Shown one piece after another: positions 1,771 through 58,149 of a stretch of DNA of 64,000 nt (position 1 is its first letter; each line of letters begins with the position of its first letter). Origin of the DNA: Pocillopora verrucosa (taxonomy: Eukaryota > Cnidaria > Anthozoa > Scleractinia > Pocilloporidae); NCBI RefSeq assembly GCF_036669915.1, contig NC_089312.1, positions 28,228,172 to 28,292,171 of the forward strand. Direction: 5' to 3'. The notes below the pieces were generated by a model that was given only the letters and a program-made list of their open reading frames with translations, had not been told where the DNA came from and made no database searches. The position numbers and the translations under genes are program-made.

Positions 1771-4700
1771 ATGAGCCATTTACCGACATGCATATTAGCT
1801 GTCACGGTGGTCCTTTTAATGGGTAGGCTTTTTTAGTTTTTTTAATTTTTTTTACATTAAATCTTCAGTTTTCATGTGCCGTGTTTATCAAAGATTTTCA
1901 TTAAATAAATACAGCAAAAATTTCAACCTGACCGTTTGTTTTTGTTATTTTTATGATCGTTCCTTGACAGGAGTGGATTTTATAAACGGTATGTATAATC
2001 AGAACCTCTTTTTAAATTGCAAATTCCTTTGGAGAAAATATGAAATTTGTTGGTCGCAGAAGAAGCGCAAAGCCTTTTAGAACATGGTTAAAAAATTTGT
2101 GTTTTTACAAATCTGGCTCCTTTGAATATTTGCTAGCTTGTTTGTTTGTTTGTTTCGGTATATTTTATGCTGGTCGAAGTTACTTGCTAAAATTTTTAGG
2201 TTTAAGTAAAACCTTGGTACATGCAGTTTTGAGATTGAATTTTGAAGACTCTTACAAAAGACAGTGATGGAACAGATCAGGTCGGCAATAATTCGCTTTT
2301 AAGTTATTGAGGTGAATGTATAAACGGCAAATATGTTATTATAACGTATTAGCTGATAAGGTCAGATAGATATGGTCATTGGATGAGATGTTTTATCTTT
2401 CTCTCATGCTAAAGTGAATTCACTTTATTTACACGTTAACTATCTTAGGAGTACGACCAGATTTTTAACATTTTTTCTGCTCTTTTACCTCAACATTTAG
2501 GGCAATATTCTGCAGTCAGTAAGTAAACCAAGACATTGTGATATTCAGAACATGTAGAATGTGGTATAGGTTACAAACAGAACTTAATCATCCTTGCAGA
2601 AAAAAAACTAGTAACTTCTCTGCGGTTATTTTCATAACTAACATATACGACGTTTAATCGAAAATTAATCGATCACGAAAACAGAAATCGATAAATTATC
2701 TTTTTTCGATGCAGTGGTTAGTTAAGCAAACTTCACTTGTTTTTAATGATCAAGTTCGAGTTTTGAATTTTTCTTTGGTTAAATAATTAAGGGTGCTTCA
2801 GGACCACTTAGTTTATTTCAAAATTAAAATTCTTTGATGGGCCGATACACTGACACTCTCTCGCTAGTTAGCTTGAATAAGTACTTCATATTCCAAATTG
2901 TTTCTAAGAGTCGAGGTCCGTTTTTTCAACAAAAGAGGGTATTATCATGAATAAGTGTAACACTATAGCTTCATGTTTATAACTCTAGATCTACGTGTAT
3001 GTAACTCAAAATAGAGTCGTGATCCACGTCGTGCACTACAATTAGCGTGACATTTTTGCGACGTTTAACAAAAATTGAATCGTTTTTTTCTTCTATCTAA
3101 TTTCAGCCATCCCAGGTCATAAAATCAAAATAGTAGGTTGTTATGTAGAGAACCCAGCCAAAAGGAATATCCCTGTTACACTGTTCAGTGACTCAAGTGC
3201 AAATTCAAAAACAAAGATTGATTACAAGAATTTCAAGGCGTACATTCTTAAAGCTATTCAGAGATGTGCAGCAGCGGCTAAACTAAAGAAATACGGATTT
3301 TTCGCTATGAACAACGTAGGTAAGTATAAGAAGTTACTTTTCCAATATGGTATGATCATTAATTGACTCAGTGTGATCAGATCACTGTAAATCACTTCGG
3401 CGGATCTGTACCATACCGGTCCTCAATAGTCTGTTATTACCTTCTACACTGAATGTGTTGACTTAGTAACCATGGCCACGACTCTACATTATAGATGATT
3501 AATTTTAAAGAAGGTGATTGCAGGTTGCTAACATGACATATACGTATCATCATAAGTGTACAGAATGAAAACAGCTAATGAAGTAGATGAATAAATAATT
3601 AGACGAATAAGGTTAAGAGGGATATTTGCTGTAATGCAACGAGAAAAGCAAAAATCACTGATTTTAATAAATGTTGATCTATTCATTAATTTACTCTCAC
3701 TTTTCTTTCCCATTGCTCTTTTGCAGGAGATTGTGTTTCCGGCAAAGTCTCCGCCACTTATGCCAGGAGCGGGTCTTCAGCGAATTGCAAAAATGCAGCG
3801 GGCGCAAAGTGCAACAACAAGGAAGACTGTGTGGGTGGTGATACTAAGGCTAATTATGTTTACAAGGTGGAAAGTAAGTTTGCAAGAAATTATAGCTCTA
3901 GGTATTTCTATTTACCTTCTCTTTTAATTTTGTTCGGTCGATGGGCTTCTTAAGTTGAATCTTGTTCATCTATAGGGCCAAGTGTAATAGTTAGGGATAA
4001 AAGAAATGCAATGGCCAATTATAATCACGATTAAAAAAAAAGCATCTTGAAGATAGTGGGATGGATAAGTTAAGGAACATTTAACTAAAGTCCAGTATGC
4101 TTTGGTTTATATGGCAATAGATGCGTATGACGCTAGAATTAGTGTAATGTATGAGCATAGAATGAATTAATTCAACATACCAAAATGTAACCAAATGAAG
4201 CCATAATCAGTATTCAAACTTACTTTCAGTGCTCCCAACCACGCCGACTACAAAACCGACAACAAAGAAGACGACGAAAGCAGGAACAGGTGCAACTGCA
4301 CAACCTAAGGCTGGATCCGCCGCCCAACTAAGCGCTTTGATTTGTAAGTAGAATCAAGGTCTTGAGGCGAAGCATTTGATTAGATCATGGGGAATATCAG
4401 GTGCCACTGAGATCCTCAATAGTCCCTCATTCTACTGCTCCCCTCGATCACGCGAACCTTTTTTCCTTCAACTGCATTCCTCAATTTTCAGTATTGTTAA
4501 TTTAGCTAGCTAGAGCTATGGACTGTAAGAGAAATATATGGAATTCAAATGGAGATAATGTAAAAGTTATTACAGACGATATGTATGACGTTACCTTCTC
4601 AATGTTCAGGTCAGAATTACGTGGTTGCCATCAAAGCTTCTGCTGCAGGTAGCCCAAGCAAACCAGCTATCCCCACCCCCTCTAAGAAACCCACTGTGGC

Positions 4701-5938
4701 GGGAAAATCTACAGGTCCAACGGTGGCAACACCTACTACATCTGCAAAGGCATCAGGTCAATCAGCCATTGAGGCCAAAGTAAGTACTTAAAATTAATTA
4801 TGTTTAGACATCGGCAAAGAAGGGTTAATCGACTTAAAAATCGCGAGATTATAGCAAACTTACCGATGCTGATTGAACGAACGCGGTTTCGGAACATTTT
4901 TGGCGTGGATTTAAAGAGCTGAATAATAATATTTTGAAACCCATTTTTGCAGGGACGAAATTTAAACAGAGCTTACATGGACAAAACTTAGAAAAAATAG
5001 TTTTTTCAGGAAAGAACAGAGTGAAAACGCCGAAGATGAGAGTGCTGGAATAGTTATCAAGGAACGAAACAAGAATCGTTACTGACATGGGACGAAAATT
5101 ACATACCACGTTGAAATTTAAACATAGGTGATTGGCATAACTCTACTCGCCGTATTTCTCTTTTCAGGTAAAAAACCTTTACCGTGGATATACTTGCCTC
5201 GTTTGCTTAAGGACGCTAAATACAAGGTATTCCAGCCTTACTTGATACATACAAGTCAATGAAAACTACGTTTTCCTGAAGGTTTTTGTTCTTTATATTA
5301 ATCTTTTTCTTTGTATTCACAACCAATTGTCACACTAGTTTTGTTCGTTCACTTTTCAGTTCATCAACAGTGTATCTTATGCTGCAATTCAGTTGCCAAG
5401 GACAACATTTGCAGAAACTTGTGGCAGGAATTGGTGCCAGTAACATCGTCAAAGCAGGTTAGAGTAAAATTTTACTACAATAACATTGAATCATTTGAAT
5501 GTTCTTTTTCGAATACAAATAACCTACTATTTTTGTTCAACTATTTGTTTGTCAGAATGCTACCCACCGCCCTGCACCACAGCAATGTCCCCTTGCCCTC
5601 TTCCCTGTGGAATGAACTCATGCCCCATGTCACCAGCCTCATCGTATCCATCAATTTGTCCAGCGACTTTACCAGCACCTGCTCCACTTCCAGCACCCCC
5701 ACTAGCCCCTCCACAGTGCCCGGCACCTTGCCCGACAAGGTGCGCTCCAGCATGCAATTCCCTCTGCTGCCGGTCCATGGTTCGACAAAAAAGCATAACA
5801 GGAGAAGCTGCCAAGAAATCGTCGACGAAGGAAGCTGACGATTTTGATGACGAAGATGACGACGCAGAGGACGATGAACAAGATGAAGATGATGATGTCG
5901 AAGAAAACGATGACTCTGACATTGATGAGACTAACTAA
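1771..5938 (+). CDS. Gene A: secreted WSC-like/SEA/minicollagen-CRD protein with acidic tail
   Basis: I place eight coding exons: 1771-1822, 3107-3319, 3727-3873, 4230-4343, 4610-4779, 5168-5226, 5360-5457 and 5556-5938. All have GT-AG borders and compatible phases, and they join to 411 codons plus stop. Exon 1 is a signal peptide (MSHLPTCILAVTVVLLM). Exons 2-3 form the WSC-like module (GCY, RC, GDC, DCVGG, NYVYK). Exon 4 and much of exon 5 are Thr/Pro/Lys-rich linker. Exons 5-7 carry a diverged SEA domain; the 59-nt middle exon is conserved. The last exon has a broken CRD (CPLPCGMNSCPM), a Pro/Ala stretch, one perfect CRD (CPAPCPTRCAPACNSLCC) and an Asp/Glu-rich tail encoded from 5834. A possible poly(A) signal lies at 6357-6362. 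The family assignment of the CRD is firm; a nematocyst role is inferred. Confidence 0.82.
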
Positions 5939-9832: not shown

Positions 9833-12800
9833 TTGACTCCAATATTCGTAAGACATATCCGTCAAATAAGTGTTCGCCATAAGTCATTTGCGTTTCTCTT
9901 AAAAATTTGTTTGCATATTTTTCTCTCCAAGACTATTCCAGGATTAAACCTCTATATCTGCTTCATCTGGATAGTTGTATTGATACACAAACAAGTGTCT
10001 GCAGGTAAGTATGTCTAACGATCTGCGTTCAGATATCGCAGTTATATTCCATTAAATCATTTGAACTGAATAATACGTCCTCCAATATTATAAGCATCTT
10101 TCCTAGGAGGAAAAGGATAGAAAGAGCGAGCACGATTATTTGATCGCGATTGTTTAAACTTGCAACACCTGCAGGAGAAGTTTGGAGAAGTTTTTAATCT
10201 CAAATTTTTATTAGACGAGAGGAGGATTGAAAACATTCCTAACATAACTGTGAGACCTGTAAGCGTTTCCCCGTGACCTGTTCAAGTTGTATCATAATTT
10301 TGCTACTAGCAATTATTGAATATTTCAGTTAATTCCGGGCTAATGAGCCACTCTTCATTCCAGTTTTCCATTTTGGGTCGTTGAGAAAGGCAAATTTTAA
10401 AAATAATGGCAATTCAGCTCTGTATTAAAGAGAAAAACCATTTTAAACGAAAAGCATGAGCAGGTAAGGCCGGTCTGCGCATCATTTAGGTCATTGCATT
10501 TCCATCAATGGACCAAACTAGAGTATTCAACCAGAGTTTACCGAGTATAAGTGGTTAATATTTTATTATTATAAAAATAAAATGTTTTTATTAGTAATAG
10601 GAAAGAAATCTTACTAGTTCGGAAACTGACGTAATAAACGACAAAGATTAGTTTACACACGCTCCAGGATTTGTTACGTCACCCCAACCTCTTCAGAACA
10701 TTAGATCGAACATTGTACGTTCTAACTCAATGCACAACTATAAGTTAGACTATGAAGTGCCGTTAATTGCATCTTTTTCAGGCATTTAACTATATCTTTC
10801 AGTGGACTGTCAGGAAGAATTTGAACGACTTGGGTGCCACGGTGCTTTCTTAGGGGCCTTGCGCCTCATACCGGAGGTTTTGTTCAACGACTCCAACTTG
10901 CAAAGCATAGATGAGTTAGTTTGCAAATGTGCAGAACAAACAAGGTTTAAGGGATATCGCGTTTTTGCGGTCCAAAAAGGAGGTGAATCAGAAATGATAA
11001 TTGATTAATAAATAAGTGTGACTCCACTAAAACCCAAATTTTCATTCATTTGTTTCTCCACTTTTTCATTACCGTCTATTTTGTTTTTTCCATGTTGTCG
11101 TTTTGTTGTTCTTGCTTTTTCGTTTGCCTGACCTTTTTTTTTTCTGTTCTATTCCTTGTTTCTTCGTATGTTAGACTTCAGTCATACAAGCTAAGATCCT
11201 GCTGTGAAAATAAGGCTGTAAGGAACCTCCCACCCCCTCTTACCTCCTCAGGTTTTCCTTTCTATGAATTGGCATCAAAACTAGGTTATGCATTTCAAAT
11301 ACGCTTCTCTTGTGCCGTGATGTCACCTGACGATCTTTGGTGAACTTCTTCAAAACCCTAGGATACTGCTGGTCAGGGAAAGAAGCTGAAACCTCATTTC
11401 CTCTGGCTGGACAAGCATTCGATTGCAAAACCTTTGATTCTAAATCATGTGGCAAAGATGACAAATATTGCGTCGGAGAAGAAAAATCAGTCTTCGTTTA
11501 TAGATTACTGGGTAAGAAAAAGCGCTTTTACCTGTAAGTAGTTACCTTTCAACGAATGCAGGACATTTTTTTTTGCGTGTATTTTATAACAAAAAAAATA
11601 AGGTTTGAAAACTTTAAAACTAATTTTTTATCTATGTCCTTTGCAGATAATCAAAACCATACTCTCACTCCACCGAAACGTATGTATTGTAGGAGGTATT
11701 CACCAGTGTTAAGGGACCAAATCTTATTTATCGCCTAGAGGGAGGGGAGGATGGGGGATTTGGAGGATTTTGAGGGGATTAAGGTACTTTGCAAATGTCA
11801 GTCGTGACAGGGCAATGGGATTTTCAGAAAAAGCAATCTAACGTGTTACTTACAGTTAGTTTTCAACGTAGTTTTAAGGGATACATATCATTAATTGCCG
11901 GGTCAATTTACAACACCAACCTGTCATTCCAAGGCCCGAGTAAAATTGAAAGAAGACTACTTGTAAAAGTCAATACCATATGAGCTTGAATAGCATACTA
12001 TGTTAACGAGCCACACTCAACCAGTTTGCTTTGCGTGCCCTTGTCATTGTTATTATCCGGGAACTCAATACTTTTTCTGACAAACCCACGAAACGGCAAT
12101 TATTACCACAATGGTAGGAGCTTTTGCTTTTTTGATAATAAGGGTATTATCGCTCAGTGCAAAACTAACCTGCTACTTTGGAAGAGGTATATTTACAAAG
12201 TTTTATGTCTGTGGAAGAGAAGAATTTGTATGACAAAACAGCACATTGCATCATGATACAATTACTATTCACGGCTGAAATATCAGACGCAGGAATTTTA
12301 TTCTTGAACATAAAAAAAGTGTGAAAGCGAGAGGTTTAAGAGGGAATCCATCCTTGATGCCTTACAAAGAGACGGACACCTTTGATTACTTTAATTTTTA
12401 TTCATATCATTCACCAGGCACAAAGAAAAGATTCGTAAAAGGAGAAGCGCTATGCCTCCAATAAACAAGTTGATCACCCTCCACGTTTAACAAAAACAGT
12501 GTTTCAAAATACACTTAAAGAATAGAGGATACCAATATAAGATTGGGTAAATTGTATCTCTGAAGTTGATTTCACTTAAAGAAAAAGGTCACTCATGAAC
12601 TTGCATGGGATCAGGCTTGCGATCGATTGTAGACGTTTCTCCATCTGACTGTCACCCAAGTGCAGAGAGGAGCTTTCTTTTTTACTTTCCTTCGAAATAC
12701 TGTGTAGCAGGGCATCTGCGAACTCTATGCTCGTTTTCTTGTCAAATCCTAAAGCTGTCTCGCGCTCATTTCATGCTTTTCAAAATTGACCTTGTAAGCC

Positions 12801-15657
12801 ATATGCTATAGCGGCTTTCCATTTCTGCAGGACGAACTCCTGATGGCTTCATTATCTAGAACACGGAATAAACCAAAAAAAAACATAGCAAATAGACGAT
12901 AGACACGGAAAGAAATTACCCCGCAATGCATTCTAGCTGAGCGTTGCTCTTTCATCAGTATTTGCAAAATTATCAAGCGTTTTTAATGATAAGGCCAAAA
13001 AAAGTATTGGCATGTTGGAACATAAAGTGGGAAAAGTCATGAAAGAAACTGCTTTTTCGAAAAAAAAAACGTGACTCAATTGGTGACCACTTTAGCAATA
13101 TAATTATATTAACCGCTTGTGATTAAATTCACAGCTTCATGTCCATCGCCGAAATCGGAGCATCACTACGATTTGGAATGTAAGTAAGATAAAACTGCTT
13201 ATCGCATTTTTTCAAAAGTATTCGTCAGTCAGTTTAATAGGAAAGGTCTAATGCTGAGGCCATACGATAAAATATTGGCAAAACCAGTTTTCTTTGGGCT
13301 GTTTTTAAAGCGTATTCTCGTGTGGAATGCTTGCCTTGCCAATTTCCTTTCCAAACCGAGGAAAAAAGTAACTTTCAAGCGACAACATAAAGCGTGCATC
13401 AAATTCTCTTGGGGAATCTTATTGTCGTCTTAGAAGGTGAGTTTTACTTCATGTTGTGCATCATATTTGCAGGCAAGGTGTATAACTTAACAGTACTGAT
13501 GACGAACACTTCCTTTGATGATTTCTTATGGTTTGCACATTCGCCCCAATTCATTGAGCTTAGAAGAGAGTTTGAACTTGGAGTAAGTATAAAGCTGATT
13601 CTGCCAGTTTTAAAAACCTTTGTTTGTTATCAGCTTTTGTAAACAGAAAGAAAACTCGAACAGGACCCTCCGCAACATACCATCCGAAGTTAAAAAAGAA
13701 TGTGTTACAACGCAACTCAATTTAGGAGTGAAACTGAAATCGTTTCAAATTGCTAATGTCTATGCGTCTAAAGGAATAGCACAATATCAACAAAACAAAT
13801 TTACCTATGTTCTTTCAATATCGCCATTTTTTCTTTTGATTGAAGCTTGCAATTTTAATTTCGGCCGAAATAACACTTTGGTTATAAAACTCGTTGTGCA
13901 AATACGCATCATAAAAATAGAAAGCTAACTTTACTACTGATACGAAACCCACTGGTGAAACGAATCATAAAATTTTACGCCCTGATCATCGCGACCAACA
14001 AAAGGGATCTTAAAACTTTATTACATGTAGACTTAATAGTTAGCACGCTGCTAGACTTTTCTGTATCGATAAGTACGGGTGGGCGTCCAACCCGGGTCAT
14101 TTTCCTGTGATCTTTGGCAAGACTCCACCCTTTCGATGCCTAACACTAACCAAGGGTAAAAACGAGTATCAGTAGGAAAGCTCTACGAATATCTGGGGCT
14201 TTTATCTTTATCGTTGGACTGGCAGGCATTCTGAGTCAGAGGTGTAGCTACACCCATGTTCGCTTCATGCTATTGTAGCTCGAATAACCCCTGGGAAAAC
14301 GACCAATCAGGCTGGTGAGACCAAGCCAGTATGCCACACTTTTTAAGTATGACGCTGCGAAAGGTAATGTCGAAGACCAGGAGCCTTTTAAGGTTTCTAA
14401 AATAATAAGTATTCAAAATATAAACTAATTCTCTAAAAATTACATTTCCAATGCAGGTTTTGCAAGCGTACGATGGATATGATCCTTTTCTCGGCGTTAC
14501 GACTTTGAGATTCAGGTAGCTCACTCATAGTAAATAGAGAAGAGGCCAGGATCATTGAGAGAGAGAAAAAATTCGATGGATCAAATTCTAAAAACTTGAG
14601 ATGTTTAAAAACACACGACTTGACGATGCAAAAATTCCATCACTATTAACAAAATATGTTTCAGTTTAAATCAGTTCATATGCTAATATTGTTTTGAGAT
14701 TAAGGTGTTACTTTTTTATCTTTAAACAGCGAAGCTCCGGGAGACAGCAACATTGTGGTGCACTTTGCTATCGAGTTTAAAGACAAGGGAGTCCACCTTC
14801 ATAACTTAACTGCGGCATTAGCATGTCAAACTTTGGGCAAGCACACTTTTCTCCCATCATTGGGTCAAGTTGGTGAGTTTGCAGAGCAAGAATGTTCTGG
14901 GTGACTTGTAATTTGTTTGAACAAACCTTTTTCATAGTTCCAGAAAGTTATAAGCCTCTATTCTGAAGTCATCTTTCCAAGTATTCTTACAGCAGGAGGT
15001 TTCTGATGCTAAGATCAGACCGTATTAAACTCGTCCACGCTTCCCAGCCCTTTATCCCCAGAAATTATTTTAATATTCTCCCTGATATTTTCTTCACACT
15101 CCCATGGTACTGAAAAGAAGATTATTTGTAAAGCTTATTAAGTTAGCGATCATTTCCTTTATCTCATGATCTGGACGTTAAGGGGTGACACTGCAAAGAA
15201 AAATCATATACTTGTAGCCCCCTGAGTTTAAAGTGTTTATTCATTTCCTTTTTAAAATAGTAATTAATTGAACAGTTGTGGTAAAATCCATTTCAAATTT
15301 ATCAAATACACTTATCGCTATCTTGGTTGTTTGTTAGCATGTTACAAGGCACCTCCCCCTCCAGTCTGCCCACTTCCATGTTTCTCTGCCTGTGCTCCAC
15401 ACTGTTACTCCAGCTGCTGCCAGCAGTACCACCCTTACTACTATGCTCCAACGCCGTCTCCTCCACATGATATTAATCCAGCTCCATGCCCAGAAGGCTG
15501 CCCCATTACATGTGCACCTTTCGGATGCACTACTCACTGCTGCAGCAATGGTCATAGTCTGCCGCATTATGTTTACGGGAAGCGTTACGAAGCTCCAAAG
15601 CCAGAGAAGCAATCGAAAATTGGCCACATCTTCCGTAAACATCATGGGAAGAATTAA
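9833..15657 (+). CDS. Gene B: secreted WSC-like/SEA/two-CRD protein
   Basis: The exons are 9833-10004 (start uncertain), 10803-10982, 11362-11511, 11647-11679, 13135-13179, 13473-13582, 14457-14515, 14730-14872 and 15338-15657, giving 403 codons plus stop if the ATG at 9833 is used. The hydrophobic segment (YICFIWIVVLIHKQVSA) aligns with the signal peptides of genes C and D, but the position of their ATG is not an ATG here. The WSC-like module keeps GCH, CKC, GYCWSG and YCVGEE. Two short linker exons follow. The SEA domain spans three exons. The last exon has CRD1 CPLPCFSACAPHCYSSCC and CRD2 CPEGCPITCAPFGCTTHCC, the second with a four-residue spacer, then a basic tail after GKR. A possible poly(A) signal lies at 15855-15860. 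The 3' half is closely paralogous to gene C. Confidence 0.78.
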
Positions 15658-17529
15658 AAGAAAAAAATCAGGAGCAAAAAGAATCAAAGAAACAAATTCC
15701 AGCGAGAAGAATTTTTGATTTTTTCCTGATTTCATATCATGTAAGGTCTACCAGGCAAGAACTACATTTCCCGAACTTGGGTTCAGATATTCATCTGAAG
15801 CGTCAAAGTTATTCCTATCAGGCCTGAAGCCATTGATTCTAATCATTATGTGATAATAAATAGCCAAATTTTGCCTGTCTTATCGAATGCAAAAATGTAA
15901 AAAAAATTTTGACAATTCCGAGATTCCGATTTACATTATATGGAAATTAAGTCAATGATGGCTATCTAAAGTATTTTAGATCAATAGCAAAGTATCTGAG
16001 ATCATTCTAATCAACATTTTCTGTTGGTATGAATTTGTTTACTTTTTATGGCTAGACCTACTACCTACACGGGTGTTCTAAAATGTTTACTAAACCTTCC
16101 CAATGAACTCAAGATCCATAACTCCGTTATATAAAATAAATTGGTTCAAGTACGATGTACTGTAAAGTAAATGATTTGAAGGTAGAATAAACAGTTGATC
16201 ACCCAATCTTGCGCGTGTTGTAAGTTTTGGAATTGATAAGAAGGGGAAGAGTGGGTCCGTTGATCGATCAACGGAAAACCGTCTTTTGCTTCCGGGCGTG
16301 GAGAAATATTGAAAGGTAGCCCTAACAAATGAAAATTTACACGGAGCCACTCAAGTTTCACCAGAATAGTTAATAGAGTACAGAGGACCGAATCCGCCGA
16401 AAATACCTTCGACAAGGAAGGTCATTATATACAATTGCTTTATATCCCTTTTGAGAAAGTGAAGGAGTAATTTGAGGTATCTCATTTTCATTTAAACAAA
16501 TACTTTTATCCCCAAACAATAAGTCGCTGTACAAGTATATTGCTTGAACGATAAAACGCAGTGATGCATCCTTTACTCCACTGATAAATCTTCATCAGCG
16601 ATACTTCGCTTTAGCGATTCATCGCGATAATGTAACGCGTTGAAGCGATTTTGTCGCTTGAACGATAAATCGCTGGAATGATATATGAAAGGTTCGACTT
16701 ATTGTTTTCGTGTGTTGATGAAACGCGCGATACATAGCCAATATTTCGGCGATATCTCGGAAGAACAAAACGCAATATTCGACTCTGATCGTTTGTATTA
16801 CTTTGGCACAGTACTGCATATATTACTTGATGTCACCTATAGTTAATTTTCAAGTACAGAAAGTCAAGGAAGGATTTTTACCAAAACTCTGGGGATGGGG
16901 GACAAAGTTTTTAGCGGAATGACTAATTTCTACCTCTTTCTCTTTGAACGTCTACTGCAGTTTCATTCAATGAAAGACAATTTCTGGTGAGGAGATGTGG
17001 GGCTTCAATGTCACTCCGAGATTCGCAGCTCGCGCCAGACTACAATCGAACGAGAAGCTTTATGGAAATGAGCATTTGTTTTTGGAGGGCGTGATTTTAA
17101 AATCTCTTTGATATATTTTTTTTAGGAACAAACCAATTATAAACATTTAAATTGTTTTTCACGGTGTTTCTTTATGATTTTTTAATAAGTCTTAATGCTA
17201 TGACGGTATTGTAAAGTAAATAACACTTAGGCTTGGCAAATTGGAAAAATAAAGCATGCTTCGTCTATCAAACGATAAACTTAATGAAAATAAAAAACTT
17301 CTGTACATTGGCTATTCAATAATTATAGATATTTAGTAATAAAAGCATTGCAGTTTTATAGCGGGATCAATCTCAATTCTGACGGGTCTTGATTTTTTCT
17401 TCCAGAAGAGATATCCAGACGTTAATTACCATAATTGACCGGTAATAGTTCTTGTATTTCACACCTCCTGTGCACCAAATAAATTAAGATACCAAATTTT
17501 TAAAAGCCCATAACAGGTAGGGTGTTAAC
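15658..17529. other. Spacer upstream of gene C, duplicated upstream of gene D
   Basis: The 3' flank of gene B (to about 15900) resembles the 3' flank of gene C. From about 15955 the sequence resembles 30810 onward, upstream of gene D. Near 16575-16740 there is a dense group of GCGAT/ATCGC words, some palindromic, with a related copy at about 31480-31660. Open frames here are not conserved between the copies, so I do not call any gene. Confidence 0.55.
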
Positions 17530-25418: not shown

Positions 25419-25545
25419 TTTTTTGCTAATTTCATATGATAAAAGGTCTACCAGGCAAATACTATATTTCCTGAACTGAGGTTCAGATAATTATCTGGAG
25501 CCTCAAAGTTATTCTTATCAGGCCTGAAACCATCGATTTTAATCA

Positions 25546-27150: not shown

Positions 27151-27151
27151 A

Positions 27152-41100: not shown

Positions 41101-43793
41101 GCAACTTTTATTATATTTTTTAGGAGTACTATGCTTTAATTAGAATTTTCTTACGTTAGGTGGAGTTAGCATTAAATTGGCAAGCCAAATAAATGATACA
41201 CTTTCTTTCACTTCTGCTATAACTTACTAGGTTTGGAATGAGGCCGTGAATATTTACCATTATCTGACAAGTTTGGCTACTTTGCTTCAATTGTGCCTTC
41301 TTCACTTGGCAGTTTTAAATCATTCAAACTCATTCTATACGATTCTTTCCTAAAAACTGATATCATATTAATTTCTGTACTTTTGTAACTGAGTTTTATG
41401 AATTAAATTTATTTAAGGTTTAAAAAAAGTTTTCCATTCTCCAGAAATACTTCATCATCAAACATCGTTTTACTGTGGTGTGGATGAAGAGAAAAATAGG
41501 GAGAAAATCGATAGTAATGATTAGTAATGTCACTTAAAACAAGAGGTAACTGAATGAGTGTATTATTACCGAAATTCTCTATGCCAAACACTTGGTAACC
41601 CAATTTCTTGCTTTGTGATGCACAGCGTTGTATTAAATCATCAAGATAGAGTCGACTAAAATTCTTTCGAATATATTTTTTGCCACTGTAACGCGGAGAG
41701 GTCTCGTTACGATCCGTAAATAACAGTTCCGCAAGAGGTCTTACTTCTTGCCAGTTGTCCCTGTAACAACCCAACTTATTGTACTCAATACCTGCCGACA
41801 CATAAGAAAAAAATAATGATATGTTAATTTGATATGACATTTTGCATTCGCATGCTAACATTCCTCACGCTATCAGGCGGTGTGCGCACTCCGATTGCTT
41901 TGCATTGTGGTAGCTTCATTTTCAATATGGCGGTGAAAGCGGCAGAAATCGGCAGATTTTGACGTGTAAAAATATTTTTTAGTACGTATTTGTCGCGTAT
42001 TCTATGGTTCTCAAGGACAAACGCAATCACTGTTTTTTAGTATGTAATTTGAGACCAGTTTTCGAGAAGGTCAAATTTGATGTACGTCGTAGTTTGGAGC
42101 CTTTCAAAGATTTGGATGGCCGCTTTGATCCTTCTTCAACAGCTCTGACTAAACGCTCTCAAACGCTCTCCAAAGGTACATGTGTTTCGCGCATTTTAAG
42201 TGCTAGTGTTTGAGATCGATTATGACCAAGAAAAGGCCTATTGTTGCGTTACACAGCGTTACTATTGTATACTCAATTGTGTCGTAAATCTACTTTCCTA
42301 AGTAAAAGCAAATTAACTAATCGCGAGTGTTGTATGGTAAATCTACTATCTTGATCATTGAATGAAGGACAGTTGAATTAGAGCAATGAAAGAAGTCACT
42401 TGACCACTGAATAACTCTACAGTGCACGCGGCGACACGCCGGGTAAGCCGGAAAGCAAAATGCAGTCGATCGTGAAAAGGTGTTGATAGACTTGTGAGAC
42501 TCCTGCCATTCGCTTGCGCTTTTAAATCTTCTGACCTGAAAACTTAGCTGTTATTAAGATATCTTTCAATTACTTTCCCTTGCGATGTGATAATAAGGGT
42601 TAGTTTTAAGGTGTAATTTCCCTGTCTGTATGTTCTTGAGGTTTGGCAAGGCCAAATGAGATTGTTACAAAAGGTAATATTTTCATGTGTGCGCGCTATT
42701 TTCTTTGTTTTCAAGTATACTTTTTCTACCGCAGAAGATAACTCCAGAGATACGGTTTTCAAAACCTTATTTTAAGTATTCTCTATTCTTTTAAGCATAT
42801 TTGAAAATCTGTATGTTTTTTTATTAAAGGTTGAGCGTGACGAATTTGGTCTTGTAAGGCGTAACGCTACTCCTTTTGCGAATCCCATATTTACGCCTTT
42901 AAGTGTATGACATGAAAAATAATTCGTGTATAAGAAGGTAGCTGTCTCTTTGTTATGAGTTTGCATGTCAAGGGTTGATTCCCTATTAAATTACTCGCGA
43001 ATATGATATTATTCACACAGCCATCGGCTGTGAGTGTAACTGTTGCCAAATGAATAGATTCTTGGGCAAGGCTGCAGTTTCGATTCTTTCTGAATCTCTT
43101 CAGTTGCCTCCTAACAACGAATTTTTCACGGAGGAATAACAGAAGTCGCGCAGGCCTGCCAACACTTTTTAACTTTCGAAGGAATGGCAACAGGCAGTGA
43201 ATCCCCATTACATTCCACGTTTATTCGCACTATCTTGCTGCCACCAGAGATGTTCACTCGACCGCGACAGGATGTAAATGACTCACTTTTCGTTTTACAA
43301 CCATGATGCAACGTAATTAGAGTGCGCACACCGCCTGTCACGCTATTAATTGATGTTATTAATGCTAATACTTCTTCCAGGCGGAAGCCACTTTCCCTTC
43401 GTGTAACAGCACAGAATCCCGCAATCCCGTATCGATTTCAAGCATATTAAAAAAAAAAACAAAATATATATATATGTAAAGAATAGAAAGTTCTTATACT
43501 GGTTTTTTTAGGAAATATTTTAGCAGAGAAGTAAGGTTAGTAATTCAGTAGAATGCGATGGCTTCACTGGAAGCCAATCATATTGATAAATGTTAGCTTT
43601 TATTGGAAATCATAGCCAATACATATTGTGAAATGAAACCGATGTGTAGACAGAGAAGTGAAAGTATTGTGAAAAGGAAAAATCTGCTGCAGTTAAAAAA
43701 AAAAAAACGATATTTACCCTCGACATAAAAGGAGGTAATGACGCAAACAAGCTCTATAACCGCCCAATTAGGTGCCCAGTGGAAGCTGCTCAT
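38142..43793 (-). CDS. Gene E: secreted WSC-like/linker/two-CRD protein without SEA domain
   Basis: The exons, in transcript order, are 43793-43718, 41791-41570, 41059-40907, 40639-40523, 40369-40214, 40003-39869, 39340-39224 and 38476-38142, giving 436 codons plus stop in one frame. Exon 1 is a signal peptide (MSSFHWAPNWAVIELVCVI). Exons 2-3 are the WSC-like module (GCYRDN, RCASQ, AECYSG, LFVYQL). Four phase 1-1 exons follow, all Thr/Ser/Pro/Lys-rich and mucin-like, in the place where relatives have the SEA domain. The last exon has CRD1 CTPQCQMSCTAVCPRACC and CRD2 CPPPCPSACAPRCSFKCC and a Lys/Arg-rich tail. The donor after exon 3 reads G|GAAAGT instead of GTAAGT; the only nearby GT breaks the frame, so that junction is uncertain. 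Confidence 0.72.
41874..43337. mobile_element. 1464-bp DNA transposon with inverted ends and 9-bp target duplication
   Basis: The left end reads CAGGCGGTGTGCGCACTC and the right end is its exact reverse complement for 18 bp, with imperfect similarity for about 20 bp more. TCACGCTAT flanks both ends directly (41865-41873 and 43338-43346). The element lies in intron 1 of gene E. No transposase is recognisable; open frames at 42004-42213 and 43126-43341 (minus) are short. A 9-bp duplication would suit Mutator-like or Merlin-like elements, but the family is not decided. Confidence 0.8.
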
Positions 43794-45874: not shown

Positions 45875-48800
45875 TTAATTTGCCTGATTTTTGTTCAACT
45901 CCTTATGTTTCTTTTTATTTTTTGGATTATTTCTATAAAGAGTAGCCTCATATTTCCTCCTGTCCTTGTTATTCTGCACTTGATGTCGTTTCCTGTACAT
46001 GTCCTGTTGCCTCTGCGCACGGTAAATCGTATAACAACAAGCAGGAGTACAGGATGGTGCACAGATTGCTCCACACGGCGCAGTACATTGAGCCAGGGGG
46101 GAATAGGGTAAGTTTTTAGCGAACGCTTCAAAAGAATATCCGACTGATGCTACTGAGGTCGAGGTTATCGTCGTGCAGCAATTTGGTGTACAGGTTGGAC
46201 TACACGTCACATTGCACCCGGGGGAACAAAGCCAGGATGACACTTGTTTGTGATCGGGATCAGGGTTGTATGGGTTACCGTAAGAAGTTAAATGAAGAGG
46301 AGTTGGCCCAAAGACCTGTTCATAGCAACCTGCAAAATTAGTAATTGTGTATCAAAGGACCTACAGTTGCCATATTGAAACACCTTAATCGATTGATCAA
46401 TTCCTCTTGTAAGTCCCACATTGAAACCAATGCCTTCAAAACGATTTCAGTCAAACAGAATGTTGGCCAGGGATTTCATTGGCACACATTCCACAAACAA
46501 CTATTCCACGAAAAAAAAAGCTGTCTCGGTATTTCGGAGCGGACTTTCCTTAATGTAATGATGGTAATCCAGAGGTAAAATCATCAATTTATCATAAATC
46601 ATAATAGCTATATGGATATTATCACTTTTTACTAGCTAGCTTACTTTGGGTTTGTATTCATAAGGAGTGCCAAGAAATGAGATGTGACACAATACGAAGC
46701 TGTCTTACCACAGTCTCCTACTGCTGGGAACACTTTTAATCGGCCAAACTTCTGTGTGCTCATCTTTTTTACGAGAGCTTTCAAGTGCTTGGTTTTGTTT
46801 TTGAACTTGAGAAGTATCGTTGAAACTACTTTCATTTCAAAGCCAGAACTAAACGAAAGCAAAAAAGAAAACAAAAACGCCTAATAGTCAAGCAAACAAT
46901 AAGATTTCACATTTCTAAAACGATTGCGGAGGCTCATTAGTGGTGTCTAGATTAAGAACTGTAAATAAAAACTCCAGATTAAAATGTGTTTCCAGATCTA
47001 TCGTTTTATCAGGTTATTCGGACTCTCCAAAGTTTGTAAATATTCATAAACCCTGAAGAATTTATCACTGCTCGAAACTGTCGCTATCAAGTTTGCAGCT
47101 GATTTACCGGAATAGATGGTTCAGAGGAGATTCATAAGAAAATGATTGCAATGCCAATTCAGATTGACGCACAGAATAAGTTGTCATAAAATTCAGTTTA
47201 TCTGCGTGGAAATCCACAACACGAAGTCCTCGAATTCAATTGAGTCTGAGCCTTCTTGAGAAGTAGTTTGAAATTGCCAAAATCCGCACAGTAGTTCATT
47301 CGCTTACCTAAACCTGAGAACTTGCACCTCCTGAAATTGTTCGTCGCCGTCATACGCTTGTAGAATCTAAAAATTAGTTATAAGTCCACTTCGATGTTTG
47401 AAGTTAGTGAATTGTCTTTATACCATGTGAATTAGAAGAACTGACACTAACAAACAACTAACAAATTCTCTCACTGACTAGCTGACAGCCTGACAAGCCG
47501 ACTAAATCAACTACAGGCCGACTGACCGACTACCCGACAGACTGTCTGACTGATTAACTGGCTAACTGATGAGCGACGGACAGACTGATTGAATGATCGA
47601 CTGGCTGGCTGAGTGTCTGACTTCTTGACTGACTGACTGACCGACCAGACGACCAATCGAATGATTGACCGTTCTTCCGTGGTAATAAACTTACTCTGAC
47701 AAACTGATTAGCTAGTCTAATTGCTGTCTAAGTGCATATCATTAGCCAGTAGGAAAACTATCTCTCTTATGGTTGTCTGAGGCTGCTAAGTTATCGGATT
47801 AGCTTACTAACAAACGTTACACGAATTTTCGTCAGAGGTAATTTGGTATTTAGCATCGAACCAAAACAAGAGAAGGCAAGGTACTCAAATTTCCAAAAAC
47901 GATTGTAAACAAAAAGGAAAGATATGACACTACATTGACTGAAATTTAGAACAGATACATACCCCTAACTCAATATTTCGCCTGTAGTCCATAAATTCGA
48001 AAGACTGATAGTTCTCTAATTCGGCAGTGTACCTTACATCATCCAAAAGAATCGTCAGCCTGTAATAAGAGCCTGTCAGTTACATTAAAATATCTCAGTA
48101 AATTAAATTTAAATTTTCATTTTGTATAGACGAAAGCCACAATCAAACGTGTGTATACTTACAAAATAATATTAAAAATCTGTACTTAAAGAATACAGCC
48201 ATCCAACAGAATCAAAAGGCATTCTTCCATGAAAAGAAGGAAAATCACTAAATATGATTTCAGATAAGGCGCAGTTAAAATAAATAAAAACATGACTGAT
48301 AGTCTTCGCACTGCACATGATGTTAAGAGTAATGAAGTTCACAAAGTAACAAGACTGCGATTCGTCCAGCCAGTCTGATTTGATATCTCCGCACTGTCAC
48401 TATTTTGTTCTCTTTTCTAAATACATTTAACTAATAAATGCTAAATACGTACATTTAAGCTCCAGTATGCTTGACTTGTAGGACTTAGCAATTTTCAGAA
48501 CTTTTTTCCGCATCATTTTTTCACTGACAGCTTTTCGCCAGGATTTTTCCATGTTAGACTTGCGACGTTTACCGAATGCTTAAAAAAAGTGAGATCATTG
48601 TTATTAATATAAATATTGATGGAGGCTAACTAAGAAACATAATTCAATTCATTCAATTGGAAGACTCCAAATCTTGGTTGACGGTTCGTTACTTTTCAAT
48701 CTCGGCCGTGTAGTATTCTTGAGGAAAAACTCACTAATTTAATGTCTAGAAGGCCCAATTTCCAAGGTTTTCCCGCGTCCAGTGCAGCACTTCCTCGGGT

Positions 48801-50113
48801 TATCAAGCACGGACGTAGCAAGGATTTTTCAAAAGGGGGTCAAACCGTGACGATTGTCATGATAACCTCCACGCCGTGTTTTATTTAAAATGCGAGAAGA
48901 GGTGGGGGGGGGGGGGGGGGGGGGGGGCGGGCGGGGTACTGGCACCTAAGGCCCCAGCTACGCCCTTGTCGGGTCAGCATAACTTCTAAAAGCGTCTGGA
49001 AAGATTACATTAGTCAGGTCATGGAAATTTTTACTTATGTGGTTGCATTAAGAGATTTAGTCAGATTTAGTTAGGGCGTAGCAACTGAGCTAAACACTGT
49101 CTCGCCATGGGATCTGTCAAAAATTGTCGATGAGCGGTATCATTAGTTCCATACTGGGATTTCTCCCTCTAGCGAAGCCCAAAATCAAACAACTAAAAAA
49201 AATTATTATTTGTTTCTTGTTGGTGAAGCTCACCTGTCATTTTGAAAACAAAAATCGTTTTTTCCTCTCCAACACAAAGTTCTGATTTGTCCTGACAAAC
49301 GCCGAAGTTTTTAGTGGTGCATTGACTGCTTAAGAAAGACTCACTAAAGGTTGGTGCATGATCATCAGTCGAATAGCATTCTCCTAAGATAAGACAACAG
49401 AGATTTATAAGCATCTCGGGTAAAGAACACTTAACAGCATCAACATATTGAATTACAGTAGGGAATGGAACGATACTAGACTTAGATCAAATAGGACAGA
49501 CCACCGTCACAAAGCCCGCTAATGTGATAGAACTTCAGCTCATTTAGAGAAACTATAAAGTGATCTGAGAAAATTGGTTTAAGTTATCGAGTAAACACAG
49601 AAGAAATAATCTAAAACAAATTTGATCGAAGAAGTTAGCCTCGCGTTTCTTATGTTCTACCAAATCTGAGATGCTTACCATAATTCTGCAATCCAAACGC
49701 AACATATCCCTTCACCTTTGTTGCCTTTGCACATCTACACGCCAAATCTGGAAGGTAGTTGTTAAATTCTTGGAAAGCGTACTTAATACCACTCCAAAAC
49801 TTAGAAGACGTGTCACGGTCTGTAAAGAGTACATCAGACATAGGACGGCGCTCTCCAACCGTCTGTTTGTAGCACCCTATTCTTTCGAAAAGTATGTCGT
49901 CACATGTTTGAGCTGTCAAAAGAAAATCATATTCAGTCGATACAACATTCAGCGAGGAATGTTTATTTCAACGAACATAGCTTACGGTTAACGTTTGTTC
50001 TGACTCCATGGTAGTTCTGTTTTTTTACCTTGTGCTTGCAATGAGATTAAAGAAATCAAGTTGATTATAAAAACTATTCCAATGTTGAACAGCTTTTCAT
50101 GACCGGGCACCAT
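45875..50113 (-). CDS. Gene F: secreted WSC-like/SEA/two-CRD protein with basic linker
   Basis: The exons, in transcript order, are 50113-50029, 49912-49679, 49383-49234, 48578-48453, 48072-47963, 47366-47308, 46848-46709 and 46329-45875, giving 452 codons plus stop with all phases agreeing. The signal peptide is MVPGHEKLFNIGIVFIINLI. The WSC-like module shows GCYKQT, LACRC, GECYST, LCVGEE and IFVFKM. The linker exon is unusual, being rich in Lys/Arg (GKRRKS, MMRKKVLK) and not Thr/Pro. The SEA domain spans three exons (YYRLTILLDDVRY; LQAYDGDEQF; VVSTILLKF). The last exon has CRD1 CSPGCNVTCSPTCTPNCC and CRD2 CTAPCGAICAPSCTPACC, then a long basic tail. An acceptor (TTTCACAG) lies just before the ATG exon, so a leader exon is likely upstream. 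Confidence 0.83.
47473..47672. repeat. Degenerate GACT/CTGA tandem tract
   Basis: About 200 bp made of GACT, GACC, GACA and CTGA-type tetramers, partly interrupted, within the intron between SEA exons 1 and 2 of gene F. Unit spacing is mostly four bases. It is an old microsatellite. Confidence 0.7.
48903..48934 (+). repeat. Long G tract
   Basis: A run of G interrupted by a single T near its start, ending in GGGCGGGCGGGG, in an intron of gene F. Shorter G runs occur at about 20462-20477, 34765-34777 and 39122-39132. These could form quadruplexes or be assembly-sensitive homopolymers. Confidence 0.6.
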
Positions 50114-52187: not shown

Positions 52188-55100
52188 TTAAGGTTTTTTA
52201 ATATCTTCATTTCGCTTAGAGTTATAAAACTGGCAACAGATTGGTGAGCATATTGGTGCACAGCTTGGAGAGCACCTCGAAGAACATTGGGAACCGGGCC
52301 AGCTCAATGGCTGTGACATCGGATACGGAGCTCGTGGCGGGGGAATGGTGGCTTGGCCAGTTATTTGTATATTCCATTGTCGCTGCGGAGGTTGATAAAC
52401 TTGAGGGCTGGGCGCCATAATTGCAACAGGCTGTGGTGGCGGGGGAGGTGGAGGAGGCAAGGGTACAGGAGCGGGCTGATAAACTGGTTGAGGCGCGGCT
52501 GGGGCAGAAACGGACGGTTGACAACAAGAATGAAGACATGCGGGTGCACAAGTCGATGGACAGGAACTGGGACATTGGGTGATTGGAGTATCTGGATAAC
52601 AGCCTAAATTTGACGAGACATTTAACGTTATTTAAGATCTAAAACGGATCTATCCGATGCACTTTATATTAGGACCGGACGTGAATACCATTTTATACAT
52701 TTTCTCAGGCACAAACTCTCCGCTCCCTCTGAATCTTGTACTACCTTGAGGACCATTTCAAATTCTGGGCTTGTAACAAGATCTCTTTCATGTTTTATTT
52801 TTGCTATGGATCGAGAGGTCTGTTCAAAATAGTTCGATCATCATAAACCTTTCCAAATTAACTCAATGTGCACACTCCCTGAAGAGAATCATAGAATATA
52901 TTGTTGACAACAGACCGAGAAATAATTTAAGTTAGAATTTGCATTACCTGCTGCTGAAACATTTCCTGGTCCAAGACCATCCAGCAGTTTTCCAATGAAT
53001 TTTCCATTCGCTCTGAATCGTAGGAGAAAATAAGCCTTTACTCCACTTGGTTCCTCTGAAGAACTGTAAAAGACATTGATCGATAATCTTTCAGCTTTAG
53101 TTTGCAAATTTACACTTGTACAAGTCAGGGTTTAACGAGAGCAGGTTAATCAGTGCACTGACTTAATTTGAAGCTGCACTGAACTTCATATGATACATTT
53201 CTTACCTAAATTTGTTAAAAAAAGCCCCTCTAAAGTCTTTATTTTCGTCAAATGCTCTTAGCACCTGCGAGGCAACAAGAAAATTATTATTATCATCAAT
53301 TGAATAAAGACAATATAAGCATACACTAAAACAATATCACACGTTTGGCTGATATACAGGGATATATTTCAATAAACTATTGTAGAAGCAGTTGTATATA
53401 AAGACCATTTTTATCAGGCTTGCATTAGAGTGTGGGACAAGCGGCAGCTTGTGATCTTGATTAACGAGCTAGGCTATCGATCAAGAGGTCTGGGATAGAG
53501 CCAAATCGGGTCATTTCGTTCTATTTAGCAAGACAATTCACTCCCTAAGAGCTTCTCTTCATCCAGAGTATCATCGAGGAATAGCAGACCACTGGGAATC
53601 CTATCCACAGTGAAGAGAGAGGCAGGAAGCGGCAAGCAGGAGACCCTGCATTAGAAAAGCCTTTACTAGACTTCACATACCTTGAGTTCTGTTGCTCTTC
53701 TAGTCGCCTGGTAGTTAGCATTTGATGGAAAAAGGAAATCATTGTCCCATGGTAACCCAGTTTTTATTTCAACGATGAAGTTCTTGCCTAGAGAAAGGAT
53801 AGTACGGACAAAATAATCGACAGTTTAAAAAATTAAAACTTCGAGAGTCCTCAGGATAACAACTCTTAACTGGATTTGCTTATCACCAAGAGGCTTATAA
53901 ACTAATCTCTAATTGAATTTGAGCACTTAGGTAACGCAATGAAACGGTTAACTCATTCTTACAGGTGAGATTTCTTAATTCGTCGTCTTTGGGCAAAGCG
54001 GACTTGTTGCTTGGATCTCTGAAGGATGGTTTATCGGCCGGCTTAGCAATTGGAGCCATCAAAAGTTTAGAGGCAGATACAGGTCTTGACGGCGGTTTAG
54101 ATGGTGTCTTAGTATCGAAAATGCTTGCTGCTGCCAGCGAACCTTTAAAAAGAGGCCTGCCTATAAGTATGAATGATTTAAAGTAATAAGAGATCAGGCG
54201 GAAGAAAGAAGAGTAATGTTTTTTCGTCTCGAGCGTGAGACAAACTTAGACTTTTCTTACCTCTGTAGCCTGAATTAGAGTCACTTTTGACGATTCATTT
54301 AAATCGCCATGCCAGTGCAAGTTGGAATTTTCCTTCTATAACACGCTCATCGTGTACTAATGGCTTTAAAGAAACGATTGTCTAAACAAAAACGTTGTAT
54401 GGTGCTTGCCTGGCCTTCGCTGTTTTCTTTTTAATGTTTTGATTTGTTCTGTTTTGTTTCATATTCTATATTATGTTTTGTTCTTGTTTACGTTCTTGTG
54501 TTTATTTTGTTGTTTGTTTGTTTTGTTTTGTTCATTTTTACTTATTTTGTCACTTCAACTCGATCTGACCTTTTCCGATCTTTATAGGTTCATCCTGATG
54601 TTTCTGCGTTGGCTTCAACTGCATCGTGTTGTAATCGTCATCTGCAAGAGATTTAACAATACTGAGAAAAGTTAGATATAAAGGTGTCTAAATCTAATAC
54701 AATGTTGTGAATAAAGCATCCAAGGAAAGTGTAACATCACTGCAATTGCATAGCTTTTTGTAGTTTCGGAACTATTCAGAGCTAAAAAAAGTTTAAAAGA
54801 AATTGAATGTGACTAATATGCCCAGCTTATTAAAAACAGTTTGTGCACAAAAACTTGAAGCATCTTTATATCAGTATCAATTTATTGAAGAACTTCACTT
54901 ATATTTCGGTCTTTTTTTTTTCATATCATTATATATTATATTTTTGAGCCGCATATGTTGCTTGGTGAAATCTATGATCAACTTTAAGATCTCCCTCCAC
55001 AATTGAGGAAGAGCTACTTTCGTTCTGATGGTGCTGTGTTATGTCAATGCCACAAGTGGTATATCAGTTAGTTACGCGTTACATACCAGTTCCAATGACC

Positions 55101-58100
55101 GCATTATCGTGAGGCTTATTATCGCTACTGACTGAGTGTACAGGGTCCAACGGCTCGTCTACAAGAACAAACTCACCTTCACCACCTTTGGCAAAAGGTA
55201 AAAACTACTCACTATTCACTATAATTTCATAATCAATGCTCAATTTAAATTAACCTTCTTCGTTGCAGAATATGTAGATAAATTTTTGGTTGGCATAGAA
55301 ACGGCTTAGTGGAGAACAGATCCATTCATGCTTTAAAATTATCAGCCAGGCCATTACACGAAGTGGAAAAACATCTTCCGTGCGCTATCGATGGATGAAG
55401 TATCAGAGACTTGGAGACCTTGCATCTCCTGAATCAAGATCTGTATTCAGAGCAGAAGTTTCTGAGATTGTTCTCAGCAACCCTGTTGCGAAAGACCCTC
55501 TGAGATGACACGTGACCGATGCATAACGCCGTCTTTTTTTACTTGTTTTAAATCGATTTACCAGAGTAAATATACCACAACGTTCTTGTGTCCTTTTAAA
55601 AACCGTGTTAAGTGTCTGACGTTGACTGGATATTGCGCGGGCCAATTTCCAATTAGGACTGTGGAGTGTAGTCCGAAGCCTGTTTGTATATTCCCAGTCC
55701 CCTTCCTGTTCTCTAATTAACCTTCTTCCGAGGTAGTGAAATTTTTCATTCGAGGAAAACCAGAAAAGATGGTAACGTTTTCAAACTTGCTGCCTCTGAG
55801 CGAAGATTACAGGCGAAGACTAACAGGTTCATCGCTTGTCTCAAGATGAGACTGTACTTAAGATAATGTTATTTGCAGAGAACGCTGCTTCTTGGTTGAA
55901 CAGCCTTCAATTCATTTGATTTAGTCTCAATATCAGCCAAATAAATATTAACACGTCAACAACGTCCCATGCATCTATTTCGGCCGCTACATCCTGGATG
56001 GTTAGGAATAATTCATGTGTTCCAATCTCTCCCAAGTCACCGAGCTGAGTTCACGGAAAAGCAAAGCACAAAATGACAATGCCCGCTTGGCAAACAATGT
56101 TTGGGTGACTGACTCCATTTTGACCATCGATATCAAAATGAAGAACATGCGGTCTTGCTCAGCTCGGCACGCACCCTTCTTAAAGGTAGGGAATTTTAGA
56201 GAGGCCTGCCGCTTTTGAAGGGCTCGATTGATTCTTTACATTGAAGGTTAAATGGTAATTTCGAAAAAGTTTATGTACCCGAGTTTTTATAAAAAATGTT
56301 TCTCTATATTATGAACAGTGATCAAATAGTACTGATCAGTTTGATTCATGTTGCGATACTATAAAATATATGTTTTCAAATACACTTTTCTTATTAGGAG
56401 TTTCCTATAAAAGAGTGGCAATCATAGTTATTGTAGGCGTGTATGAGAATACTTTTAGTGCAAAGTAACTGAATAAGGTACCTACCGTAATTATCATCGT
56501 GTAGGTCTGAAAAAGTCTTCCCCACATCTATAAGACAGAAAGTGTTAGTCTCTGTGTTAACTGTGTATTACCACTATTGCCTAATTATGTATTTATCACT
56601 ACTTTTTAGTCATCGGTCTTCCTGAAGCTTGACTTTCTCCTCATCATACTTATCACATTCTTAAAGATATGAGGCTAAGTAGCTCTGACCAATCAGCACT
56701 CTTCCAATCTAAGCCAAACACTAGACAGGACTTGAAGAAATGAAAAATTAAAGTATCCGGTGTCCATGCCGGCAGGGAAATTTGGTTTAAAAATACAGGG
56801 TTATAAAAGACAGTGACCAAACAGATCACATCGAACAGATCACATCGAACAGATCAAAACGAACAGATCAAAATTGTACTTTTTTAATCAAACAGAGAGC
56901 AACCTATAGTGAAATCAATTACTGGTATAATCTCCCAGAAACTGATACGTTTACCTACCGGCGCAACTGAAATCTCCCTTCAAGTCATCAAAATTTATAT
57001 GTGCCTCTCTTGATGCATCAACCAGCCGTATCTGACCAATTTTGTTATTGAATTGGGCTACATTCCAGAACTTTCTTCGCATGCGATCACGGCAGTTGTC
57101 AGGAAAAGCTGTGCGTTGAACTTTCCCGTTCACCAGAAGTTCCACTCGTATTTTACCTGCGTCGCATCCACCACCAAGTAGAAAGTTTATATTGGAACCT
57201 TTGATACGAAAGCTTGGTGAAGTAAGAGTGCCGATGGGGTAATCACCCATCAGAAGTGGATTGGATTTGTTCGCAAATGTTGCTATCCACCATTCACCTT
57301 GCACGTTTGTCTTTATTCCCTGGTCTCGTATCCCGGGGTTATCCCTGTATGTTGGTTGGTTATCAAAGGCGTGTCCGGTTTTTTTCCAGGTAGATAATGC
57401 CTCAACCCCATTTTCAAAATCAAATCCTCCACAATCGCCTGAAAATCAAAAGATTTTATTTTGGTTTGCGCAGATTTGCGAGAAAATAGTTTTAAGTTCT
57501 CCTGAAATCGATTGATCGACATTTTAAAGAAATTATCTATCTAAAGCTTATTCCGTCACTGGGCTACAAAATCCAGCGGTGTAACCCAATTTCAGTGACA
57601 CACTTAAATCGACGCGGAGTTGTGGTACAAACTTTATGGGACACAGAGAGTTCAGAACGACAAGACGTAAACGTTACCAAATATCCCAATGTCATTTAGA
57701 AGGTGACTATGAAGCTTAAATTTTGCCAGTCATGCAACTGACTAAGCCCATAATCTAATTTTTCACTGCGCTTTACATTCGAGATTAACGACATGGCTGG
57801 ATACACTTTCCTCACCAGCATTGTTGTTGTTTTGTTTCTTGATGATGTTTGACGCAGGACCTCACTGTTGGCTTGGGAAATATGACCTAGACTTGAGTTT
57901 TATAAAGTTTTGGAGCAGACATTCCGCTAAGCATGATGATATAACTGTGACTTTAACATGAGATCAGCAGACCATCATCAAAGACATTACTGATTCGTTC
58001 TATTTCGTATTCCAATAGGTATTAGTTATCACCAAGAGAAAATATGTTCTATTATTTTCTTTTGTCCTCACCTTGTACGAAATCAACTATAAATACAGCC

Positions 58101-58149
58101 ACAAACAGCGTTACACAGTTGACTGAATTCCAAAGAATCGATCTGCAGG
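52188..58149 (-). CDS. Gene G: secreted CBM66-like/SEA/two-CRD protein
   Basis: The exons, in transcript order, are about 58149-58072 (signal-like: WNSVNCVTLFVAVFIVDFVQ; start codon not found), 57438-56959, 56527-56486, 55158-55087, 54641-54570, 54160-53963, 53787-53681, 53264-53206, 53063-52948 and 52603-52188. All placed phases agree; at least 520 codons. The 480-nt exon encodes a complete beta-sandwich-type domain (FDFENG, EWWIATF, GTLTSPSF, FLLGGGCD, INFDDL) resembling the C-terminal CBM66-like domain of GH32 enzymes, likely sugar-binding. Small acidic or Pro/Lys-rich linkers follow, then a SEA domain in three exons. The last exon has CRD1 CPSSCPSTCAPACLHSCC, a Pro-rich stretch with eight consecutive prolines counted across PPPPPPP-type runs, and CRD2 CSSRCSPSCAPICSPICC. 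The small linker exons are the least certain. Confidence 0.7.

Follow-up and report, generated by a model that had tools for sequence, protein, structure and literature searches.

Seven neighbouring collagen-less genes of a stony coral end in minicollagen-type CRDs and may encode nematocyst matrix proteins

What would a stony coral do with a run of neighbouring genes whose products end like minicollagens but hold no collagen? The window, that is, the whole 64-kb stretch of Pocillopora verrucosa DNA analysed here (64,000 nucleotides, GC 0.38, eukaryotic), contains one cluster of seven related, spliced genes, A-D on the + strand and E-G on the - strand. Open frames, splice signals, and paralogy guided the manual placement of exons, and database proteins match the hand models (A against P0051, D against P0001, F against P0054). 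The genes have intron phases in common and follow one plan: a signal exon (phase 1), a WSC-like domain on two exons (1, 1), Pro/Thr-rich linkers (1-1), a SEA domain, and a CRD exon. SEA occupies three exons, with phases 1 to 0, 0 to 2 (59 bases), and 2 to 1. The CRD exon comes next, with a phase-1 acceptor and the first residues (G/A)C[Y/H], or ECY in gene A. The features of all genes except C, which is treated separately below, are as follows.

1771..5938 (+): gene A, aligning along its length with P. damicornis LOC113678250 (P0051)
ATG 1771 to 1822 (+): A, signal exon, supported by the P. damicornis protein
3107-3319, 3727-3873 (+): A, WSC-like exons
4230-4343 (+): A, Pro/Thr-rich linker
4610-4779, 5168-5226, 5360-5457 (+): A, SEA exons, the second and third found by profile and the first via orthologue P0051
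5556-5938 (+): A, CRD exon, with a canonical CRD at 5717-5770, a degenerate Cys stretch, and an Asp/Glu-rich tail
10803..15657 (+): gene B; its second WSC-like exon and its SEA exons have a match in Stylophora P0016
10803-10982, 11362-11511 (+): B, WSC-like exons
13473-13582, 14457-14515, 14730-14872 (+): B, SEA exons
15338-15657 (+): B, CRD exon, CRDs at 15367-15420 and 15487-15543
33761..37568 (+): gene D, model with a full-length identity of 98% to P. damicornis LOC113678252
33761-33832 (+): D, signal exon, supported by the P. damicornis protein
34081-34299, 35063-35212 (+): D, WSC-like exons
about 35569-35667 (+): D, Pro/Thr-rich linker
36398-36507, 36660-36718, 37115-37263 (+): D, SEA exons
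37465-37568 (+): D, CRD exon, single CRD at 37494-37547
38142..41791 (-): gene E, no SEA exon
41791-41570, 41059-40904 (-): E, WSC-like exons
about 40639-40523, 40369-40214, 40009-39869, 39340-39224 (-): E, four hand-placed Pro/Thr- and Lys-rich linker exons
38476-38142 (-): E, CRD exon, CRDs at 38444-38391 and 38327-38274
45875..50113 (-): gene F, orthologues P0054, P0055, and P0050
50113-50029 (-): F, fair candidate for a signal exon
49906-49679, 49383-49234 (-): F, WSC-like exons
about 48546-48448 (-): F, linker
48072-47963, 47366-47308, 46848-46709 (-): F, SEA exons
46329-45875 (-): F, CRD exon, CRDs at 46228-46175 and 46087-46034
52188..57438 (-): gene G, with another N-terminal domain in place of the WSC-like one
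about 57438-56959 (-): G, N-terminal domain, 159 residues
near 54107-54039 (-): G, linker
53787-53681, 53264-53206, 53063-52948 (-): G, SEA exons
52603-52188 (-): G, CRD exon, CRDs at 52574-52521 and 52286-52233

Scanning the window with profiles built from these exons revealed no further copies. Upstream of B, positions 9005-9112 (+) match the first 36 residues of Stylophora P0016 (64%) and could be a further exon or a repeat. A MITE-like inverted repeat of about 120 bases (91% identity) lies at 315-437 and 653-772, and a 169-residue open frame without a Pfam match lies outside the cluster at 63483-63992 (-).

We examined the tails in all six frames with a loose pattern, C-x3-C-x2-4-C-x2-4-C-x2-4-CC. 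It matched 12 times, always in one of the seven last exons, and gave no match in 50 first-order Markov shuffles of the window. Ten of the 12 have the exact spacing C-x3-C-x3-C-x3-C-x3-CC, the second CRDs of B and C having four residues in the third gap. Two CRDs are present in B, C, E, F, and G and one in D; in A, the degenerate Cys stretch precedes the single canonical CRD. Pro occupies position 11 in 11 of 12 CRDs, and the consensus, CPxPCxSxCAPxCxxxCC, is close to the minicollagen CRD 1zpx. Runs of five or more Gly-X-Y triplets are absent from the six frames of the window and from 10 homologues. The first-pass annotation had described every gene as ending in one or two minicollagen-type CRDs and lacking Gly-X-Y repeats, and both statements hold. 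CRD matches occur in the last exons only, none at the N-terminal ends, whereas minicollagens have CRDs at both ends. No KR/RR propeptide site precedes the first domain in P0001, P0003, P0050, P0051, P0052, or P0053; the KR of P0051, P0052, and P0053 falls inside the WSC-like domain, and the start of P0052 differs.

A profile of 10 of the 12 CRDs (A2; it excludes the second CRD of B and that of C) was compared with the PDB. Up to E 10 it returned seven rows, led by minicollagen 1zpx (0.0066) and including five NOWA rows (0.035-0.84; structures 2hm3-2hm6, 2nx6, 2nx7); the sole non-CRD row was an unrelated peptide at E 5. The CRD exon of F alone gave four rows, all NOWA or minicollagen (E 0.48-2.5). 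That of G alone gave eight, in which five unrelated Pro-rich rows (0.004-0.5) outranked NOWA (0.62) and minicollagen (0.79). Resemblance of the tails to minicollagen and NOWA CRDs, as annotated earlier, is thus supported at the level of sequence. The CRD part of the predicted structure is of low confidence, with ten-residue pLDDT means of 33-51. According to PMC4863159, Val/Ile at position 4 and Pro at position 14 favour the C-CRD fold. Since Val/Ile4 occurs in 0 of 12 CRDs and Pro14 in 1 of 12 (E-1), we see no classical C-CRD and read the CRDs as N-CRD or NOWA-like.

We then assigned the domains upstream of the tails. With profiles from these exons, the full set of three SEA exons was recovered in B, C, D, F, and G, and in A exons two and three of the set; these positives are not independent, because the profiles were trained on the same exons. 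With Pfam SEA (PF01390, gathering cut-off 26.4 bits), D (29.9) and F (35.7) score above the cut-off and B (21.6) and C (23.3) below it, while P. damicornis P0018 passes at 26.8; neither G nor the A orthologues P0051 and P0053 have a match. A and G were assigned to the SEA group because of hhalign profile comparison, which gave probabilities of 99.4 for the A orthologues and 93.4 for the SEA piece of G alone. A VIA comparison of the predicted structure, which gives no E-values, identified a SEA fold, with a mucin-type SEA as best match. The exon-profile scan and Pfam found no SEA in E. Exon profiles, Pfam, hhalign, and P0051 together agree with the earlier count of six genes with a SEA-like domain (A, B, C, D, F, and G).

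Two features go beyond the first-pass annotation, the chimeric make-up of C and the WSC-like domain of A-F. The Pfam scores of this domain (PF01822, cut-off 27.8 bits) all lie below the cut-off: 17.8 for the A piece, 21.0 for B, 23.3 for C, 18.7 for D, and 23.7 (piece) or 16.1 (whole model) for E. F and G gave no Pfam WSC match, and in G the exon-profile scan found none either. VIA comparison of the predicted structure suggests that the head is of a sugar-binding type. The N-terminal domain of G has no Pfam or NCBIfam match, its best PDB sequence row is at E 0.055, and its pLDDT when predicted alone is 39; it may resemble a beta-sandwich found beside bacterial levanases. The N-terminal modules therefore do vary, as had been proposed, with WSC-like heads in A-F and a different domain in G. 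A signal-like first exon, earlier claimed for all seven genes, stands for A and D (P. damicornis proteins) and for C (a copy of the D exon); F has a fair candidate, and B, E, and G have weak ones. The start previously given for G is an open frame without ATG.

Gene C joins the head of one neighbour to the tail of another.

18315..25418 (+): gene C, chimera
18315-18387 (+): C, signal exon, a close copy of that of D
18532-18750, 20753-20902 (+): C, WSC-like exons, D-like
near 21291 and 22099 (+): C, Pro/Thr-rich linkers
23116-23225, 24167-24225, 24445-24569 (+): C, SEA exons, B-like, the last open only from a downstream acceptor
25045-25418 (+): C, CRD exon, CRDs at 25074-25127 and 25191-25247
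12663..15845 (+), copy 22263-25545: duplicated block, the SEA-CRD half of B, 79-80% DNA identity
15948..21476 (+), copy 30803-35753: duplicated block in pieces, the WSC half of C with its upstream flank, 74-84%

At the protein level, the WSC part of C resembles D at 86% and B at 41%, whereas its SEA and CRD exon resemble B at 86% and 73% and D at 51% and 59%. These values make C a chimera of head and tail, with the junction within or next to the linkers. The dN/dS values of the paralogues (WSC of C/D, 0.37; SEA of B/C, 0.43; CRD exon of B/C, 0.64) indicate that they are constrained and not hypervariable. By hand count, the third SEA exon of C (start ~24438-24450) is 13 bases shorter than the P. 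damicornis protein P0018 implies; since this exon is shortened and open only via a downstream acceptor, C may be impaired here. An intron of C also harbors what is probably a transposon (19025-20281; ORF 19591-20118, -); it has terminal inverted repeats of 20 bases and a THAP domain (58 bits) and is absent from the matching place of D. In P. damicornis, pdam_00016633 (P0018) has sequence from 19142-19692, within this THAP element, fused to gene C.

Three protein searches returned 57 proteins, 10 with CRDs and 47 without. The CRD-bearing homologues, which place cluster members in three coral genera, are P0001, P0002, P0018, P0051, and P0054 from P. damicornis, P0003 and P0055 from Stylophora, P0050 from Oculina, and also P0052 and P0053; among the 57, E and G have no protein of their own. 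The P. damicornis CRD proteins lie on contigs of equal size (221,492), and the Stylophora ones and P0016 on another (1,026,093), which suggests that the cluster is conserved. NCBI already lists predictions for the orthologous genes, under the names uncharacterised or SEA domain-containing protein. SEA+CRD relatives came from stony corals only, and sea-anemone relatives have WSC-like domains without CRDs. A search with the SEA+CRD part of P0050 retrieved only P0050 itself and P0054 among 169 candidates; it missed P0001 and P0003, among other known members, and another search missed P0018; absence outside corals is therefore weakly supported. For C014-E10, an Acropora unigene that has a SEA domain, PMC2629781 describes expression in scattered cells of the ectoderm.

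We hold, at roughly even confidence, that the cluster encodes a tandem family of secreted, collagen-less stony-coral matrix proteins linked through their CRDs into the nematocyst wall or tubule. Such a nematocyst role is plausible. During nematocyst maturation, intermolecular disulfides would link the CRD tail to minicollagens and to further CRD proteins. The head would thereby be fixed covalently to the wall or tubule, and a WSC-type head may bind capsule glycans there. In PMC4863159, GFP with two N-CRDs polymerises, whereas GFP with one does not and inhibits C-CRD polymers. On the strength of those experiments, members with two CRDs (B, C, E, F, and G) should bridge and one-CRD D should only cap. 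A bolder version, which we consider rather unlikely, would make the locus a recombining display cluster: the tail would be a covalent plug through which interchangeable sugar-binding heads are set into the wall or tubule of the cnidocyst, with D capping and two-CRD members bridging, and phase-compatible introns of neighbours would recombine into new head-tail pairs, as in gene C. Several observations count against a nematocyst location: orthologues of D, F, and A with a complete start lack a KR/RR site after the signal, no CRD is of the classical C type, the CRD fold is poorly predicted, and Pro-rich non-CRD rows rank above NOWA for the G exon. Nematocysts are pan-cnidarian, yet the SEA+CRD relatives are from stony corals, a weak objection given the members that the searches missed.

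The missing propeptide site and the restriction to stony corals would also fit the main rival, a disulfide-cross-linked extracellular coat outside the nematocyst, in skeletal organic matrix, mucus, or glycocalyx, which we regard as a tentative possibility. SEA is typical of mucins, the best fold match is mucin-type, and the linkers are Pro/Thr-rich; the tail of A, whose Asp/Glu-rich character recurs in three orthologue sequences, could bind calcium, and we know of no capsule protein with a tail like it. However, that tail belongs to one of seven genes, those of B, C, E, F, and G being basic, and the CRD profile ranks nematocyst proteins first among solved structures. A secreted family of recognition or immune lectins, diversified by module swapping and aggregating through its CRDs after release, would account for chimeric C, the tandem duplication, and the sugar-binding-type head, but only a single swap is observed and the paralogue dN/dS stays below 1, making this improbable. 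That the short Cys/Pro-rich ends are unrelated to minicollagen CRDs and converged on their pattern is very improbable. Six cysteines so arranged are easily reached, the best profile E-value is just 0.0066, and the single exons of G and F match weakly; against this stand the exact spacing, the near-invariant Pro11, the consensus near 1zpx, and the lone non-CRD row at E 5. If the proteins do reside in cnidocysts, the cross-linking tail of minicollagens would be a transferable anchor that fixes lectin-type and mucin-type modules to the stinging capsule of corals, and the reshuffling of these modules would be visible in adjacent genes. If they belong to skeleton or mucus, minicollagen CRDs would also occur outside stinging capsules; this would matter given the use of minicollagens as genes specific to the phylum and to cnidocytes.

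Finally, we compared the cluster with known systems. NOWA is collagen-less and carries about eight CRDs behind folded modules, its heads being SCP and C-type lectin. The cluster proteins share this arrangement, and their profile matches NOWA CRD structures, but they have WSC-like and SEA modules and one or two CRDs; no Pfam row for SCP or C-type lectin appeared in models B-G or in 9 homologues including the A orthologue P0051. With minicollagens they share the CRD cysteine spacing and conserved proline, and differ in lacking Gly-X-Y, an N-terminal CRD, and the KR/RR site and in adding WSC-like and SEA domains. Anthozoan multi-WSC proteins (Nematostella LOC5514576, P0004; Exaiptasia P0005) have the WSC-like domain, with 47-52% identity over 40% of the D query, but in tandem (four in P0004) and with no CRD. 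Hydra Cnidoin is likewise collagen-less and secreted, with minicollagen CRDs, and is disulfide-incorporated into the capsule wall; its CRDs flank a silk-like Gly/Gln-rich elastic block at both ends, and the available part of its description mentions neither SEA nor WSC (PMC4321713). No such block is present here: the G+Q share of 40-residue stretches in alignment A1 (five window models and two D orthologues) never exceeds 25%. The shell protein NSP4 (nematocyst-specific protein 4) also has a CRD without a known collagen domain and is set apart, in the partial description consulted, by a Cys/Pro-rich part at the 5' end and a remainder without known domains (PMC6134521). CRD proteins named for Nematostella in the accessible part of PMC12549020 are cnidocyte-specific, and minicollagen expression marks cnidocytes in the Stylophora pistillata single-cell atlas (PMC8162421). 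In the part of the open full-text literature covered, we found no description of SEA or WSC joined to minicollagen CRDs, and the one open-licence paper with both "minicollagen" and "SEA domain" applies them to different genes. The architecture, which the first-pass annotation did not recognise from earlier work, accordingly looks undescribed as a combination of domains, and its tail is of a known type. The concept of a CRD linker is less new than that annotation held, because Cnidoin (PMC4321713) and NOWA already carry CRDs on other modules.
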